In this document: positions 2,800-19,658 of the stretch, piece by piece
Layout of the letters: each line of letters opens with the position of its first letter
Position numbering within the stretch: the stretch's first letter is position 1
Assembly: GCF_003475325.1 (NCBI RefSeq)
Contig: NZ_QRQC01000019.1
Location: 1-46,219 of the forward strand
DNA: 46,219 nt
From: Collinsella sp. AF33-16
GTDB lineage: Bacteria; Actinomycetota; Coriobacteriia; Coriobacteriales; Coriobacteriaceae
Reading direction: 5' to 3'
Notes under the pieces: generated by a model
Seen by the model: the letters and a program-made list of their open reading frames with translations, nothing else
Databases searched by the model: none
Told to the model about the DNA's origin: nothing
Program-made: the position numbers and the translations under genes

Positions 2800-3540
2800 T
2801 TAGGCAAACATGACCTGGTCGAACGTATAGAAGCCGGGTTCACGGGCGACGAGCTTCTGCGCGGCTGCCAGGGCGCCGTTGACAAAGATCTGACGGCTCG
2901 TGGCGCGGTGGGTGAGCGTGACTTCCTCGTCCTGGCCAAAGAAACCCACCTCGTGCACACCGGCTACGGTGCCGCCGCGCAGCGAGTGCATGCCGATTTC
3001 CTTGGGGTCGCGCGCTCCGCACATGCCCTCGCGGCCATAGACGGGGTGGTAGCCTGCCTCGGGCTCGGCTTCGACGACGGCGTCGAGCAGCAGCTTTGCG
3101 GTGCCGCTGGGGGCATCGACTTTTTGGTTATGGTGCGTCTCGACGATTTCGCAGTCAAAGCCGGGCAGCTCGCGCGTGGCCTGTGCTACCAGATGACGCA
3201 GGGCTGCGATGCCGATGGAGTAATTGCCCGAGTGCATAACGCGGGCGTTCTGGCCCAGCTCACGCAGGCGGTCCATCTGCTCGGGGGTGTAGCCTGTGGT
3301 GCCCGAGACTAACGCCGCGCCCGTGCGCTCGACATAGGCGACGACGGCATCGAAGGTCACGACGTTCGAGAAGTCGATGATGACGTCGGCTGCCGGGGTG
3401 CTCTCGAGCTCGGACAGGTCAAAACCGATCTGGGCCACGATATCAAAAACGGGCTCTCCAGCGGCGTTGACAATGCCCTCGGCGGTAGTGTGGATGAGCG
3501 AGCCCATGCGGCCCGTTCCCATAATGACGGTCTTAATCAA
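2800..3540 (-). CDS. dapB: 4-hydroxy-tetrahydrodipicolinate reductase
   Basis: A 246-residue NAD(P)H-dependent reductase: N-terminal Rossmann motif (VIMGTGRMG), VSGTTGYT, the catalytic ETHHNQKVDAPSGTA block and a C-terminal SRQIFVNGALAAA helix. It reduces the DapA product to tetrahydrodipicolinate. The start is TTG at 3538-3540, within TTGATTAA that overlaps the dapA stop; GGGAG lies 9 nt upstream. The next Met (codon 7) falls inside the nucleotide-binding motif, so TTG is well supported. The 8-nt overlap implies translational coupling with dapA. Confidence 0.93.
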   Translation of the reverse strand: MIKTVIMGTGRMGSLIHTTAEGIVNAAGEPVFDIVAQIGFDLSELESTPAADVIIDFSNVVTFDAVVAYVERTGAALVSGTTGYTPEQMDRLRELGQNARVMHSGNYSIGIAALRHLVAQATRELPGFDCEIVETHHNQKVDAPSGTAKLLLDAVVEAEPEAGYHPVYGREGMCGARDPKEIGMHSLRGGTVAGVHEVGFFGQDEEVTLTHRATSRQIFVNGALAAAQKLVAREPGFYTFDQVMFA

Positions 3541-5852: not shown

Positions 5853-5920
5853 CCTCGCTATCCAGACGGCGCCATCTGCGCATCGAATCCGCATAGCGTG
5901 GACCCAATGTCCGGATAGCG
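5853..5920 (-). promoter_or_regulatory. Expression platform hairpin between lysine aptamer and lysA
   Basis: CGCTATCCGGAC (5920-5909) pairs with GTCTGGATAGCG (5867-5856), 12 bp with one G-U. The 3' arm runs into GAGG (5856-5853), the only plausible SD for lysA (ATG 5842). There is no T-run, so control is more likely at translation than by termination. Inference from pairing only. Confidence 0.55.
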
Positions 5921-5936
5921 CTCCCGCATTGCTGCA

Positions 5937-6071
5937 GACAGTCCTGCGGGTGTTTCCCGCAGGCCCACCAGGTTGTTCGTGCCCGAAAAGCCCAGTTCGG
6001 CGGGTTTCGCCTCCCCACGGGGTCAAAGCCTGCCGGCTCACCCGCGGTTCTTCGTGCCCGCGCCTCTATCA
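5937..6071 (-). promoter_or_regulatory. Lysine riboswitch (L box) aptamer
   Basis: Read on the minus strand, the leader begins GATAGAGGCGCG and ends GGACTGTC. GATAG and CTGTC form P1. Between them lie conserved L-box blocks: GAGGCGC, a GAAGAAC loop, GCGAAACCCGCCGAACTGGG, and a GCCTGCGGGAAACACCCGCAGG hairpin immediately before ACTGTC. These match the lysine riboswitch consensus in content and order. It lies upstream of lysA-dapA-dapB-dapH, whose end product is lysine. Confidence 0.88.
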
Positions 6072-6081
6072 AGTGGTAACG

Positions 6082-14053: not shown

Positions 14054-14800
14054 CTAGAACAGGAAGCCGATGGCGATGAGGGCGATGCTGACGATGAGCA
14101 CGGCGATGTCCAGGCCCTTGATGGGGTAGCGCTTGTACGAGCTGGCGCGTGTACGCAGATAGAAGCCGCGCTGTTCTGCCGCCAAGGCTGTGGCATCGGT
14201 CTTGCCCACGCTCGAGATGAGCAGTGGCACGCACAGTGGCAGCATGAGCTTAAGCTTCTTGATGGGGTTCTTGGTGTCGTACTCGACGCCGCGTGCGGTC
14301 TGCGCTTCCATGATGGCGTTCATCTCCTGACCAAACACCGGCACAAAGCGTAGCGCCGTGGTAAAGGTGAAGGCATAGCGATACGGCACGTGCAGCACCT
14401 CGACGCAGGCGTTGGCAAGGTCGTTGAGCTTGGTCACCATGAGCATGAGGATGAGTGGTAACGCCACGCCCAGCAGGCGCAGGCAGGCCTTCGATCCCGT
14501 GATGAGGCCCGTGTCGGTGATAAAGCCCCACACCACGTTGCCATCGCGCATAAAGGCTAGCTGGAGCACCAGCATGATAAGCGCGAGCGGAATCAGCAAC
14601 TTGAGCAACGAGAACAGACGGTCGACGACACCGGCATAGGCGCCCAGTGCGAGGGTGAGTGCCAAAAAGCCCAACAGCGCCACGTAGGTGTCGGACAGGA
14701 AGATGCCGATGATGATGGCGGCGGCAAGGCCCAGTTTGACGACCGGGTTCAAGCGGTGCAGCAGTGTGTCGCCCGGCATGTAGTCGATGACGTTAACCAC
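14054..14800 (-). CDS. ecfT: ECF transporter transmembrane component EcfT
   Basis: A 248-residue membrane protein with about five to six helices and the coupling-helix motif AQTARGVEYDT (Ala-Arg-Gly of EcfT). It couples the ATPases to the S component. Start: GTG at 14798-14800 (MVNVIDYMPGDTLLHRLNP), 10 nt after AAGGAG and overlapping the ecfA stop as GTGGTTAA; ATG 14833 would give a longer, less typical N-terminus. It is the last gene of the S-A-T operon. Confidence 0.88.
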   Translation of the reverse strand: MVNVIDYMPGDTLLHRLNPVVKLGLAAAIIIGIFLSDTYVALLGFLALTLALGAYAGVVDRLFSLLKLLIPLALIMLVLQLAFMRDGNVVWGFITDTGLITGSKACLRLLGVALPLILMLMVTKLNDLANACVEVLHVPYRYAFTFTTALRFVPVFGQEMNAIMEAQTARGVEYDTKNPIKKLKLMLPLCVPLLISSVGKTDATALAAEQRGFYLRTRASSYKRYPIKGLDIAVLIVSIALIAIGFLF

Positions 14801-16544
14801 GGCGGACCATCTCCTTGGTAATGCGAACGACATCGGTGACCTCGCTCACCTGCGCAAAAGCGGGCGAGACGGAAGATGCCAGACGGCGCGAGAGTTCAAT
14901 AACCTGGGGCGGCTCAACATAGGCACGCTGCATGAGATCGATGTTCGAGAATAGCTCGTGCGTGCGGCCGCGGTCGAGGATGCGACCGTCGGCCATTACC
15001 ACAATGCGCTCGGCAAAATCCGAGACGACTTCCATATCGTGGCAGACCATGATAACGGCGCAGCCGCGCTCGGCCATGGTGCGCACCGTTTCCATGACGG
15101 TCATGCACTCGCGGTAATCAAGGCCGCTCGTGGGCTCGTCGAGCACGACGATCTTGGGCTCAACCACTACGACGGAGGCAAGCGCCACCATTTGTCGCTG
15201 GCCGCGCGAAAGCGAGAAAGGTGCCTCATCGGCAGGCAGGCCAAAGCGGTCGATAACGAGTCGAGCGCGACGCAGAGCCTCGGCACGGTCGATGCCGGCA
15301 AGCTCCAGGCCAAAAGCGACCTCGTCGAGTACGGTATCCTTGCAGATCTGGCGGTCGGGGTTTTGGAAGAGGGTTGCGACTTCGCGGGCGATGCGGCTCG
15401 TGGGAACGGCCGCGGTATCCAGTCCCGTGACGCGCACGCTGCCCGAGGCGGGCTTGAGCAGGCCTGTGAGCAGCTTGGTGAGCGTGGTCTTGCCGGCACC
15501 GTTTTGGCCGACGATGCCCACGAGCTCGCCGGGATAGAGCGTCAGGCTAAGGTCGTGTACGGCGGCGCCGCCATTGGGATAGGCAAACTCAACATGGTCG
15601 AAGGTGAGTACGGGTTCGGCGTCCTTGGCATGAGGGCGCAACGACGGTGCGTGCGGTGAGCCGGCGGGCGCCTGGGCTTCGCTGGCCGCGTGTGCGGGGT
15701 CGACGATGCCCGAAATCAGGCGCTCGGCCTCATCGACATCCAAGCAAGGGGTACCGCTTACCAGGCCATCGGCCTCGAGGCTATTGAAGATACGCGTGAC
15801 GCGAGGGCAGTCGACGCCGATGGCACGGAGCTCGTCGGTATGCGCGAAGACCTCGTGTGGTTCGCCCTGCAGCGCGATTTCGCCATGGTTGAGCACGAGC
15901 ACGCGGTTGCAGTACTCCGAGAGCAGGGCGACCTTTTGCTCAACGACGACGATGGTGATTCCAAGTGTGCGGTTTGCCTCACGCAGCGTCTCGAAGACCA
16001 ACGTGGAGCTGGCGGGGTCGAGTGCCGCGGTGGGCTCGTCGAGAACCAAGACGCGCGGACGCATGGCGAGGATGGCGGCGATGGCTACCTTTTGCTTCTG
16101 TCCGCCCGAGAGGGTGGCGATCTCGCGGTCGCGCAGGTCGCTGATGCCGACGGTCTCGAGCGTTTCGCTCACGCGCTGCTCGATCTGGTCGTGGGGAACG
16201 CCAAAGTTCTCGAGGCCAAAGAGCATCTCGTCCTCGACGACCGAGGCGACCATCTGCGTGTCGATATCCTGCAGCACGCTGCCGACGATTTGCGACACGT
16301 CGGTGAGCGAGGCTTCGCAGGTGTCGTGGCCGTTAACCATGACGGACCCAAAGAACGTGCCGGTGTAGTGGTGGGGCACGGCACCCGACAGGCAAGCGGC
16401 AAGCGTGGACTTGCCGGCGCCCGAGGGCCCGATGATGCCGATGAAATCTCCCTTGTTCACGCTGAGCGAGATGTGGCTGAGCGCCTGCTCGGTCTGCGTG
16501 CCATAGGAGAACGAGACATCGTCGACGTTGATGATCGTTTCCAT
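14793..16544 (-). CDS. ecfA: ECF transporter ATPase, two fused ABC domains
   Basis: A 583-residue protein with two complete ABC domains. First: Walker A GPSGAGKST, signature LSGGQKQ, Walker B VLVLDEPTAALD. Second (from about residue 310): GQNGAGKTT, LSRGQRQ, VVLDEPTSGLD. An Ala/Pro-rich linker (residues about 285-305) joins them. Most ECF systems encode EcfA1 and EcfA2 separately; the fused form is typical of dedicated systems in which S, A and T sit together. It powers uptake through EcfT and the S component. Confidence 0.92.
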   Translation of the reverse strand: METIINVDDVSFSYGTQTEQALSHISLSVNKGDFIGIIGPSGAGKSTLAACLSGAVPHHYTGTFFGSVMVNGHDTCEASLTDVSQIVGSVLQDIDTQMVASVVEDEMLFGLENFGVPHDQIEQRVSETLETVGISDLRDREIATLSGGQKQKVAIAAILAMRPRVLVLDEPTAALDPASSTLVFETLREANRTLGITIVVVEQKVALLSEYCNRVLVLNHGEIALQGEPHEVFAHTDELRAIGVDCPRVTRIFNSLEADGLVSGTPCLDVDEAERLISGIVDPAHAASEAQAPAGSPHAPSLRPHAKDAEPVLTFDHVEFAYPNGGAAVHDLSLTLYPGELVGIVGQNGAGKTTLTKLLTGLLKPASGSVRVTGLDTAAVPTSRIAREVATLFQNPDRQICKDTVLDEVAFGLELAGIDRAEALRRARLVIDRFGLPADEAPFSLSRGQRQMVALASVVVVEPKIVVLDEPTSGLDYRECMTVMETVRTMAERGCAVIMVCHDMEVVSDFAERIVVMADGRILDRGRTHELFSNIDLMQRAYVEPPQVIELSRRLASSVSPAFAQVSEVTDVVRITKEMVRRG

Positions 16545-16756: not shown

Positions 16757-17329
16757 TTAATTGAGCCTAAGGGCCTTCTGGATGGGCAAGTAGAGGGCAC
16801 CGACCAGAATGGCGTTAAAGACGGCGGTCATGGCGACGACGGGCAGCATAGCGGCGGCGAGCTCGCCCACCACGCCGAGCATGGCCATCTTGATGACCAT
16901 GAAGATGACGCCGGAGACAAAGGTGGTCAGGAAGGTTGCGACAATGGCGATCGCGGGCTTGACCTGACCGTTCTTGCCGGCGGCGTTGACGATGCCGGCC
17001 ATGAGCATGGCGGCGATGCCCTCGGCGGCAAAATCGACGAACGGCGAAGTGGTGGTGATCTGGATCACGGCAGCCGAGATGAGGCCAATGACGAGCGCCT
17101 GGCCGATGTTGGGGCGAATGACCAGGATGGTGAGGCAGAAGGCCGAGATGATAAACTCGGGGCTGATCATGCCGCCCGAGATGCCCGAGATGGCCTTGCC
17201 GACGGTGAAGTTGAGGATGAAGCCGGCGGCGAGCAGGATGGCGAGCAGGACGAGGGCGCGGACATCGAGTTTGCCGCGGTCGGCGGTCTGGACGGTGCGG
17301 GGTTGGGCGGCGGTGGTGTTCTGAGACAT
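16757..17329 (-). CDS. ECF transporter S component, probable tryptophan-specific
   Basis: A 190-residue membrane protein with about five or six hydrophobic helices (for example LVLLAILLAAGFILNF, FIISAFCLTILVI, AIAIVATFLTTFVSGVIF). The genes for the fused ATPase and EcfT follow, so it is the substrate-binding S subunit. Substrate is inferred from its leader: a short peptide with three consecutive Trp codons and a terminator, which indicates control by tryptophan supply; TrpP-like S components are known. Start ATG 17327-17329, with AAAGGA 8 nt upstream. I see no residue that by itself proves the substrate. Confidence 0.72.
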   Translation of the reverse strand: MSQNTTAAQPRTVQTADRGKLDVRALVLLAILLAAGFILNFTVGKAISGISGGMISPEFIISAFCLTILVIRPNIGQALVIGLISAAVIQITTTSPFVDFAAEGIAAMLMAGIVNAAGKNGQVKPAIAIVATFLTTFVSGVIFMVIKMAMLGVVGELAAAMLPVVAMTAVFNAILVGALYLPIQKALRLN

Positions 17330-17373
17330 GGTGAAAATCCTTTCGGAATGGGAGTGCAAGAGAAAAGCGGAGG

Positions 17374-17505
17374 CGCGTGATGCGAATGCGATCGGGCTCG
17401 AGATAGAAAAAGGCCCCCGGTCGAAACCGGAGGCCTTCCAATCACCTAGAGCGCAAAAACAGGCGTGAGGGACTCACTGTCGACCGATCGTATTCGCATC
17501 ACGCC
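17374..17505. repeat. Inverted repeat bridging the attenuator terminator
   Basis: The plus-strand segment 17374-17395 (GCGTGATGCGAATGCGATCG core) is complementary to 17484-17505, inside the leader-peptide gene, with one mismatch over 21 nt. The terminator at 17405-17435 lies between the arms, so read-through RNA could fold into a long helix. Confidence 0.7.
17405..17435 (-). terminator. Attenuator terminator of the ECF operon
   Basis: On the minus strand, GGCCTCCGGT-ttcg-ACCGGGGGCC followed by TTTTT, between the leader peptide and ecfS. A competing pairing is visible: TCACGCCT with AGGTGA just upstream of the terminator, and GGCGTGA (in the leader codons) with TCACGCC. Confidence 0.8.
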
Positions 17506-17542
17506 ACCACCAGTTGTTGAGAGACTTCATCGTGTTCTTCAT
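17474..17542 (-). CDS. Tryptophan-rich leader peptide of the ECF operon (22 aa)
   Basis: ATG 17540-17542 to TGA 17474-17476 encodes 22 residues beginning MKNTMKSLNN, with Trp-Trp-Trp at codons 11-13 and ending DANTIGRQ. SD AAGGAG is 9 nt before the ATG. It is followed by an intrinsic terminator and then the S-component gene, the standard layout of ribosome-mediated transcription attenuation. Low charged tRNA-Trp would stall the ribosome on the three TGG codons and favour read-through. No trp biosynthetic gene is near; the controlled function is transport. Confidence 0.85.
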   Translation of the reverse strand: MKNTMKSLNNWWWRDANTIGRQ

Positions 17543-17600
17543 GTTGGTGGCTCCTTTCGTGATGCCGTGGCGCGGTCGCACCTAGTTGCTGTTGCGCTGC

Positions 17601-17606
17601 ACTATA
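17601..17606 (-). promoter_or_regulatory. Candidate -10 box of the ECF operon
   Basis: TATAGT on the minus strand, 59 nt upstream of the leader-peptide ATG; the -35 is weak (TTCCCC at 18 nt). The rest of 17543-17681 contains an A/T-rich palindrome (about 17631-17649) and GGCGGG/CCCGCC (17652-17666), and no gene. Confidence 0.4.
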
Positions 17607-17681
17607 GCACAGCGAAGTGTGTGCGGGGAAATCTTTTTTAAAAAGATTTCAGGCGGGTTTCCCGCCGGTCAAAAGAGCGGG

Positions 17682-17729: not shown

Positions 17730-19658
17730 TTACTCCTTATTGCGACGGTAGAGGAAGTAACCGCCCGCGGAGATGACGGCAACGCCAGTGATGGCGAATG
17801 CAGCCACCACGCGGCCATCAAAACGATCACCGGTGGTGGGCAGGCCGCCCTTGGTGTTCGTCTTGTTGGTGGTTACCGTGGTCGTGGTGTCCGACTTGCC
17901 AGGCTTCTCGGGCTTGGTGGTGGGCTGCTCGGGCTTAGCGGGCTGCTCGGGGGTACCGGGCTGCTCGGGAGTGCCGGGCTGATCCGGGGTGACCGGGTCG
18001 GTGGCAAGGGCGTCCTTGGCGTAGGTGATGGACTCCTTGAGGCCGTTGGTCTCGGTATTCAGGTCGCTCGGGGTGAAGGGCTGGTCAAAGTTTCCTGCCT
18101 TCTGATAGGCGCGCATCTCCTGGAGCAGAGCCTTGCACTTCTTGTAGGTGTTCTCGGTAGCAGCATTGCCGGCCTTGTTGGCCAGGGCGGTGCGGCCCTC
18201 GGTGGTCGTTTCGGCCAGCATGGCGGCGTCAACTTCCTTGTTCTGCTCGATGAGCTCATTCTGGAGCGCGTCGAGGTAGGCGCGGACACCGACGCCAAGG
18301 GTGTCAGGGTTTTCAAAGCAGAGAGTGCTGATGTCCATGAGGACGTAGTTGATGGAGTTCTCCGGCTCCTCGTTGTTTACGATGTCTGCCTCATCGCAGT
18401 GATCGAAGGAGACGGTCTGATCGCTGAAGTACGGGCTGACCTCAGTCATCAGAGCGGAGTAGAAGGGGATGGCGACGGAGTACGCGGCGCGGGAGAGCAT
18501 CTCCCACTGGATGGTAGCGACTTCGGGATCAAGGCCGCGACGAATCTGGAAGAGGTTGATCTCGGTGTTGGTTTCGGTGCCGATGGCGTAGGCGCCGTCG
18601 GTGTTTGCGTTGAGGCCGGGAACCTTCTCGCCACGGTTGCCAAACGCGCGAATCATCTCAAAGGTGTTCCAGTTGGACTTACCGGGTTGGAAGAATAGCG
18701 GCTGCATTTCATTTACCATAGCGCCAACTTTAGCGCGCGGTTTTTTACTGGTGTCCTTTTTGATTTCATAGTCGGTGCCCTCGGCAAGCGGTGCGTCGAA
18801 GTAGGCACGGCCCTGGACATAGCGTGTCCAAGAATGCATGGCCTTTTCGCTAATTTCTTCACCATAGGTCTGGGCAACGTCGAACTGGCCATCGTCAAAG
18901 TACTTAGCAAAGCCCTTTTCCACGGGCATGGACTCGATGCCCTCGGAGTGGAGGCAGTTTGCACCGTCGTTGAGATTGACCTTGTAGTTGAGGTTGCCGA
19001 TGTTGGGGTTGAGCGACGCGACGTCATCGGTGAGCTTCATGGCTATCCACTGGTGGCCGGAAAGCGCGGCGAACAGCCAGGTCTCGTTGTTATCGGCGAT
19101 GATGAGCTGATCGTTGCCGCAGGCGCCCTGCTCGTCGATGATTTTGCCGAGGAGCTCGACACCCTCACGTGCCGTAGCGCTTTCGCCCAAGATGACGCTG
19201 CCGTAGCTATACTCGCCAATGCCAGTGTCGGTAAGGGGATCAGCCGCCTTAGCGTCTGCATTCATGTATGTGGTCAGCGTGGCGGAGCAGGATACACCTT
19301 TCTCATTGATGCCCGCTTCGGAGTAGGCATCCCAGCGTCCGTGCCACTGCGAAGGATGGTCGCGCACGTAACTATAGCGATACGTGGTATTGGGCGAGGT
19401 GTATGCGAATTCGGACTCGTCTGAGCCGTAGATATGGCCGGGACCATGTGAGGGTTCGATGCCGAAGTGCTTGAGATAGCGCTTGCCAAAGTCCTCGGCG
19501 CGGCCGTAGTACGTGTTGCCGTCGGCTGTTAGGTCTTTGCCCATGTACATCTGCGTGCAGGCGAGCGCAGAGGTCGGCATGGACATGATGGTTGCAGCTC
19601 CAAAGGCGAGGCCTATGCCTAGCTTCTTGAGCGCGTTGACGGGGTGAGTTTTCCTCAT
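17730..19658 (-). CDS. LPxTG-anchored C69-family dipeptidase
   Basis: A 642-residue surface protein. The signal peptide ends ...TSALA and is followed directly by CTQMYMGKDLTADGNTYYGR: in C69 (PepD) peptidases the N-terminal Cys freed by processing is the nucleophile, with Gly/Arg in the following motif, so secretion would both export and activate it. The catalytic domain spans about 34-440, then a helical region (about 450-560), Pro/Glu repeats (TPEQPG), and a sortase signal: LPTTGD, a hydrophobic helix and a RRNKE tail. It would hydrolyse dipeptides at the cell surface. SD GGGAGG precedes the ATG. No sortase gene is in the window. Confidence 0.9.
   Translation of the reverse strand: MRKTHPVNALKKLGIGLAFGAATIMSMPTSALACTQMYMGKDLTADGNTYYGRAEDFGKRYLKHFGIEPSHGPGHIYGSDESEFAYTSPNTTYRYSYVRDHPSQWHGRWDAYSEAGINEKGVSCSATLTTYMNADAKAADPLTDTGIGEYSYGSVILGESATAREGVELLGKIIDEQGACGNDQLIIADNNETWLFAALSGHQWIAMKLTDDVASLNPNIGNLNYKVNLNDGANCLHSEGIESMPVEKGFAKYFDDGQFDVAQTYGEEISEKAMHSWTRYVQGRAYFDAPLAEGTDYEIKKDTSKKPRAKVGAMVNEMQPLFFQPGKSNWNTFEMIRAFGNRGEKVPGLNANTDGAYAIGTETNTEINLFQIRRGLDPEVATIQWEMLSRAAYSVAIPFYSALMTEVSPYFSDQTVSFDHCDEADIVNNEEPENSINYVLMDISTLCFENPDTLGVGVRAYLDALQNELIEQNKEVDAAMLAETTTEGRTALANKAGNAATENTYKKCKALLQEMRAYQKAGNFDQPFTPSDLNTETNGLKESITYAKDALATDPVTPDQPGTPEQPGTPEQPAKPEQPTTKPEKPGKSDTTTTVTTNKTNTKGGLPTTGDRFDGRVVAAFAITGVAVISAGGYFLYRRNKE

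Follow-up and report, generated by a model that had tools for sequence, protein, structure and literature searches.

What switches on the ECF importer genes of this locus, and what does the importer carry? The locus lies in the window, the whole 46,219-nucleotide stretch of Collinsella sp. AF33-16 DNA that was analysed. A preliminary description, which gave no strand, had proposed a 22-residue leader with a good Shine-Dalgarno (SD) sequence, three consecutive Trp codons (codons 11-13) and a terminator in front of a complete S-A-T ECF operon. All of these parts are found, and all lie on the minus strand, with the importer genes 3' of the terminator:

17601-17606, minus strand: likely -10 box TATAGT (extended TGTGCTATAGT), read from the sequence.
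17556-17551, minus strand: Shine-Dalgarno sequence AAGGAG of the leader, read off the window; a purine-rich SD precedes the listed leaders too.
ATG 17542 to stop 17474, minus strand: leader peptide gene of 22 codons, MKNTMKSLNNWWWRDANTIGRQ and stop, in the window sequence.
17512-17504, minus strand: three tandem Trp codons, the control codons 11-13.
17492-17504, minus strand: clamp strand A, GCGTGATGCGAAT, spanning the final base of Trp codon 13 and codons 14-17.
17470-17486, minus strand: antiterminator 5' strand CGGTCGA-CAGT-GAGTCC, from the window fold and the alignment.
17418-17435, minus strand: antiterminator 3' strand GGCCTC + TCGACCG, lying within the terminator 5' arm, the loop and the start of the 3' arm.
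17435-17407, minus strand: intrinsic terminator GGCCTCCGGT-TTCG-ACCGGGGGCC-TTTTT.
17369-17387, minus strand: clamp strand B, ATTCGCATCACGCGCCTCC, 3' of the terminator; within the window's family it is conserved and covaries with strand A.
16757-17329, minus strand: ecfS, tryptophan-type ECF S component, 190 aa (Pfam TrpP, fold match).
14793-16544, minus strand: ecfA, fused double ECF ATPase, 583 aa (TIGR04520, 460.3 bits).
14054-14833, minus strand: ecfT, ECF transmembrane component, 259 aa (Pfam CbiQ, 91.8 bits).

The regulatory element is conserved. A covariance model built from 21 sequences gives exactly one match in each of the 43/43 genomes of the window's genus, and matches in 68/197 genomes and 16/93 genera of the class; the genus, class and phylum searches used stricter filters, with weak matches lost. 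Tandem Trp codons lie exactly 18 nt before a GGTY motif in 83/83 loci (83 genomes), an outcome favoured for the class loci, which came from a model containing this stretch; for 36 of the 83, ecfS alone led to the locus. Among 80 named loci retrieved independently with the S protein, 60 keep this register. The Trp codons are followed by six codons and then the Gly codon GGT, again in 83/83 loci. They read WWW in 81/83, WW in one (L023) and WAW in one (L102). The motif is GGTT, not GGTC, in G102 and G112; GGTC is present twice in 19 loci, and in L104, L106 and L107 the leader stops earlier with the position of GGTC unchanged. Because the element occurs once in each of the genus genomes and keeps its register in all 83 loci, it is not a chance arrangement. 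Left out before counting were L026 (contig edge), L040, L041 and L043 (duplicates), G086 (27% identity, one stop) and L036, which has neither a leader nor an Rfam match at the gathering cut-off.

A leader ORF with SD is present in 39/40 newly fetched loci; L102, with its WAW leader, falls outside the WW filter. Apart from the Trp codons and a Gly-Arg/Gln end, the peptide is highly variable. The importer accompanies the element closely. In the first search ecfS is present in 40/58 genomes, 36 with the attenuator and two with a T-box (G044, G052); of the remainder, G017 is cut at a contig edge, with the attenuator on another contig, and G041 has neither attenuator nor T-box. Among the newly fetched loci, tblastn places ecfS downstream in 38/40, 37 of these with ecfA as well (L089 without). 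In L089, ecfS is followed by a T-like ORF and ecfA is absent from the fetched piece. L104 and L106 have no ecfS, and their attenuator precedes a sodium-dependent transporter; L107 has two attenuators, the first before a sodium-dependent transporter and the second before ecfS. The transporter family (NF037979, NCBIfam) was tested for L104 and L107, and L106 was assigned by likeness to L104 only. A spread of the element beyond the class was considered and rejected: 13/296 phylum genomes match the model, 12 of them in the class, and the other, G423, has a partial match (model positions 30-107) from which the leader part is absent.

The preliminary description had also invoked a competing stem pair, which it left undefined. 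Such a structure can be specified: the leader's last codons CGGTCGA (17486-17480) pair with TCGACCG (17424-17418) in the terminator loop and 3' arm, an antiterminator that is conserved and folds in silico. Its 5' strand consists of the last base of codon 19, codons 20-22, the stop codon and 4 nt further. The alignment shows that GAG/CUC and CC/GG pairs are possible in addition and conserved; in the minimum-energy fold of the window only the outer seven antiterminator pairs form, and a local hairpin replaces the others. We folded with RNAfold the RNA lying 3' of a ribosome on the Trp codons and ending short of the complete terminator, for 12 representatives, of which 11 were computed (L017 was left out, its terminator being missed by the pattern). 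The leader end pairs with the terminator region in 11/11, as CGGUCGA/UCGACCG or similar, with GAG/CUC and CC/GG following inside in most. Once the terminator is complete and no part of the RNA is covered, the terminator is the favoured fold in 9/11, the exceptions being L023 and L034, so the choice between the two structures must be kinetic.

In the antiterminator alignment (21 sequences), 96.8% of cells are standard pairs, against 17.9-60.9% when the strands are slid by 1-3 columns; the terminator is 96.4% paired. Covariation in the antiterminator is weak, with 46/500 shuffles reaching the paired percentage and 29/500 the covariation score, because the columns are nearly invariant. When a ribosome is placed in silico on the final Trp codon, 58/66 distinct cores give P>0.5 for pairing of GGTC to the terminator region (P 0.99 in the window), and in 8/66 the antiterminator is not preferred in the model. 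With the ribosome at the stop, the terminator forms in 66/66 cores, a figure that follows in part from the selection, since only loci with a hairpin were included (L109, where the script found no terminator, was not). The whole region has a folding z-score of -5.3, and 0/200 shuffles are equally stable. In the window's clade, the codons that follow WWW could pair with a region 5' of the leader (GGCATCACG); this was seen by eye only and was set aside.

The same importer gene is associated with a second tryptophan sensor. In genomes of the Eggerthellaceae type and of Clostridia, the orthologous ecfS genes have T-box leaders (RF00230) that likewise sense tRNA-Trp; they are a different RNA from the window leader, and the window has no T-box at Rfam's cut-off. 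Of the families named here, we take f5 to be Atopobiaceae and f2 to be Eggerthellaceae; the named relatives of its ecfS put the window's organism in the Collinsella aerofaciens group. ecfS matches occur in 93 class genomes, 66 with a model match and 27 without, or 26 once one weak match is dropped; a T-box lies directly upstream of ecfS in 22 of these 26 genomes, which have a clear ecfS and no model match. Its specifier is Trp (UGG) in 23/23 inspected cases (the 22 class genomes and L037), with a UGGC bulge in all but L037 (UGGU). Clostridia orthologues have a T-box with a UGG specifier in 6/6. The scores of these T-boxes, those of Clostridia included, are 43.7-85 bits and lie under Rfam's 93, with E at most 5.1e-7. 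Near the Trp T-box of ecfS, L037 carries a further, divergent T-box (2934-3181, plus strand; 109.3 bits) with a CUC-like specifier.

No T-box is found in the other four of the 26 genomes. L127 ends at a contig edge and is counted as unresolved. L116 and L117 have the terminator only, of the attenuator type and before ecfS, with the Trp leader absent; both genomes have trpA. L123 has a WWW leader and a terminator before ecfS, with the GGTC register absent. In Gardnerella-type orthologues a leader with WWW and one more Trp codon is followed by a strong terminator in 7/7 loci (L203, L205, L206, L209, L211, L214 and L215).

On comparative and computational grounds, conservation in all 83 loci, folding at the two ribosome positions and the exchange for a Trp T-box on orthologous genes support the proposed Trp-codon attenuation of the ECF importer. 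The window holds a short leader with start codon, SD and tandem control codons, followed by an antiterminator and an intrinsic terminator that are mutually exclusive in the models. We consider the element to be, very probably, a ribosome-mediated, trp-type transcription attenuator through which a shortage of charged tRNA-Trp would turn on a dedicated tryptophan ECF importer. Under ample tryptophan the ribosome would reach the leader stop and cover CGGUCGA...GAGUCC, the terminator would fold and the operon would be off. Under scarcity it would stall on WWW, 18 nt before the CGGUCGA stretch; the antiterminator would then form first and RNA polymerase would read into ecfS-ecfA-ecfT. We infer both the stalling and the read-through. 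E. coli trpL works on the same principle, in that stalling on Trp codons or arrival at the leader stop decides between antiterminator and terminator; trpL, however, controls biosynthesis, whereas the window element would control uptake.

The importer has the composition of an ECF transporter, with a six-helix S component, a T component and ATPases. The AlphaFold model of the S protein (mean pLDDT 80.9) has six helices, and its five best Foldseek matches are S components (ThiT, RibU) at probability 1.00 and a best E of 0.011; none of its matches passes E 0.001. The window protein matches Pfam TrpP (PF17099) with E 3e-5 and 24.3 bits, below the gathering score of 27.2. This weak match, the S-component fold, the Trp T-boxes and the distribution of trpA support tryptophan as the predicted substrate, as the preliminary description had suggested. 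trpA was not found in 40/43 genomes of the genus (the source assembly is not among them), where the controls were found 14/14, nor in 37/40 genus genomes that are at least 90% complete and clean, nor in 61/68 class genomes with the attenuator. Several loci carry, close behind the first, another S-like gene that shares about 41-50% identity with the window ecfS (L078, L080, L082, L084, L085, L086, L088, L095, L103 and L109; also G014, G017, G018, G022, G023, G025, G030, G032, G059 and G062).

Regulation reveals what is sensed and not what is moved, and the attenuator could sense tryptophan while the importer moves a relative: indole, a tryptophan precursor, a Trp-containing peptide or another aromatic compound. 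The weakness of the window's TrpP match and the lack of any relative found by sequence among solved structures leave room for this, as a small probability. Against it, two unrelated Trp-tRNA sensors, leader and T-box, stand on orthologous genes; 12/20 orthologues match TrpP at E 0.01 or better (best 2.1e-11); and in L104, L106 and L107 an attenuator of this kind stands before a sodium-dependent transporter. With trpA not found in most of the genus genomes, these bacteria could make little use of indole-glycerol-phosphate or of any earlier precursor. Tryptophan itself stays the probable cargo. In E. coli, tnaC precedes tnaAB. A tnaC-like leader would likewise be a short Trp-containing leader before a transporter gene; its growing peptide would detect free tryptophan and stall at the stop, with an effect exerted via Rho. 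This reading is highly improbable here given the constant distance of the tandem Trp codons from the antiterminator strand in 83/83 loci, the intrinsic terminator with its matching antiterminator, and the wide variation of all other parts of the peptide than its Trp codons and Gly-Arg/Gln end.

Control of B. subtilis trpP is by TRAP, whereas the window has a leader peptide, with S, A and T in one operon with a fused ATPase. The relevant part of PMC11487621 names tryptophan among ECF substrates and TrpP (PF17099) as a B. subtilis ECF S protein, which the window protein resembles in being an ECF S component. The preliminary description had called the S component otherwise anonymous, and this does not wholly hold: Pfam already gives the TrpP hint, and tryptophan ECF import is, from that same account of B. 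subtilis TrpP, of a known kind (PMC11487621). The C. glutamicum protein called TrpP is another matter; according to the pertinent section of PMC11995493 it is SdpI-like with three helices and was judged by its authors to be no tryptophan transporter. Its likeness to the window protein is in name only, and a relation is ruled out by that paper's own account.

Actinobacterial trp attenuators are described for Corynebacterium and Streptomyces, where, in the passages of PMC1262725 that treat them, they precede trp biosynthesis operons and trpS. They share with the window element a tandem UGG leader, a GC-rich terminator with poly-U and an antiterminator, as well as their actinobacterial host, and differ in standing before trp operons or trpS instead of an ECF importer (PMC1262725). 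We found no paper in open-licence PubMed Central that joins trp attenuation with tryptophan ECF import, and the attenuator is not described in the relevant parts of PMC9413887 and PMC2965389. On these sources, actinobacterial trp attenuators and tryptophan ECF import are each known separately, and the element described here would combine them. It would assign a likely substrate to widespread importers of the Coriobacteriia from regulation alone, via two unrelated Trp-tRNA sensors, and would show leader-peptide attenuation acting on import in bacteria most of which have no tryptophan synthase alpha. Attenuated tryptophan uptake may also bear on competition for tryptophan in the gut.

A further element lies beyond the terminator. 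The RNA there, CGCATCACGCGCCTCC, complements the leader bases that start at the end of Trp codon 13 (GCGUGAUGCG); it also complements the Trp codons themselves, if a bulge and a mismatch are allowed. This clamp and a ribosome that has stalled at those codons are mutually exclusive. The clamp would form only after read-through and therefore cannot steer termination on its own transcript. For E. coli trpL we know of no conserved pairing of the Trp codons with RNA beyond the terminator. Nor is pairing beyond the terminator mentioned for the actinobacterial trp attenuators in the relevant passages of PMC1262725.

A coincidence without function could also explain the complementarity, the spacer being rich in C and the Trp codons rich in G. 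We consider this unlikely. The clamp occupies one fixed register in 42/47 computed loci of the window's family (L076 doubtful). With strand B placed by consensus alone in 48 family loci including L077, which give 27 distinct strand pairs, only 6/2000 shuffles reach the observed pairing of the ten-pair core, and compensated changes occur at four pairs. Chance is favoured, on the other hand, by the part over the Trp codons, which shows no covariation (702/2000 shuffles), and by the absence of the clamp from L023, L029, L031, L032 and L102, counted as misses among the 47, and from the 15 computed Atopobiaceae loci (ten more gave no result by script). The duplex energy test cuts both ways: p 0.05 is reached in just 21/33 family loci, L029 without the register among them, against 2/15 Atopobiaceae loci. 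L077, L082, L084, L088, L089, L100, L101 and L108-L111, where the terminator or the codons were missed, were left out of the clamp survey. The clamp would be a covarying element new to the attenuator, seen in the window's family, with a putative function that is directly testable.

Our best guess is that the clamp shuts off the used sensor: after read-through it would mask the Trp codons and stop more leader translation. In folds of RNA long enough to run through B as far as ecfS, the accessibility of the leader SD drops by more than 0.2 in 8/22 loci (from 0.76 to 0.22 in the window); L074 shows a gain of about 0.2, and the remaining loci show smaller changes. More specifically, and quite tentatively, strand B may act as a fifth segment, foreign to the textbook attenuator, with which the mRNA closes over its sensor after switch-on. 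Leader translation would then cease and each round would save three tryptophans, or the mRNA would be processed at that point; terminated leader RNA could also meet B in trans. RNA processing or protection are alternative roles.

The clamp might instead govern translation of ecfS and not reuse of the leader. Strand B does lie in the ecfS 5' region, and the actinobacterial LEU element 5' of leuA offers a precedent, its Leu control codons pairing with downstream 5'-region RNA as those of the window would; there, however, the partner is the leuA Shine-Dalgarno sequence, according to the relevant part of PMC1262725, whereas the clamp's partner is the spacer between terminator and ecfS. In 18/23 loci, masking the Trp codons leaves the accessibility of the ecfS SD less than 0.15 from its former value, and the five exceptions (L018, L030, L034, L077 and L113) shift in both directions; L033, L081 and L087, whose SD the script missed, were left out of the 23. 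This makes control of ecfS translation improbable, and with so inconsistent an effect an ecfS ribosome-site switch was rejected as the role of the clamp, for which shut-off of the used sensor is preferred.

At the 5' end of the locus, a scan of the window finds no consensus sigma-70 promoter; CTATAGT occurs within 170 nt 5' of the Trp codons in 47/81 readable loci, just one of them in the Atopobiaceae (G159). An inverted repeat, AAATCTTTTT/AAAAAGATTT (window 17629-17649), adjoins the likely promoter on its upstream side. Rfam 15 has no family at the gathering cut-off within 17374-17606, and elsewhere in the window it matches only a lysine riboswitch (5908-6076, minus strand; 74.4 bits). Directly upstream of the attenuator, at 17730-19658 on the minus strand, lies a gene for a C69-family dipeptidase that weakly matches the tail of a sortase-dependent surface protein.
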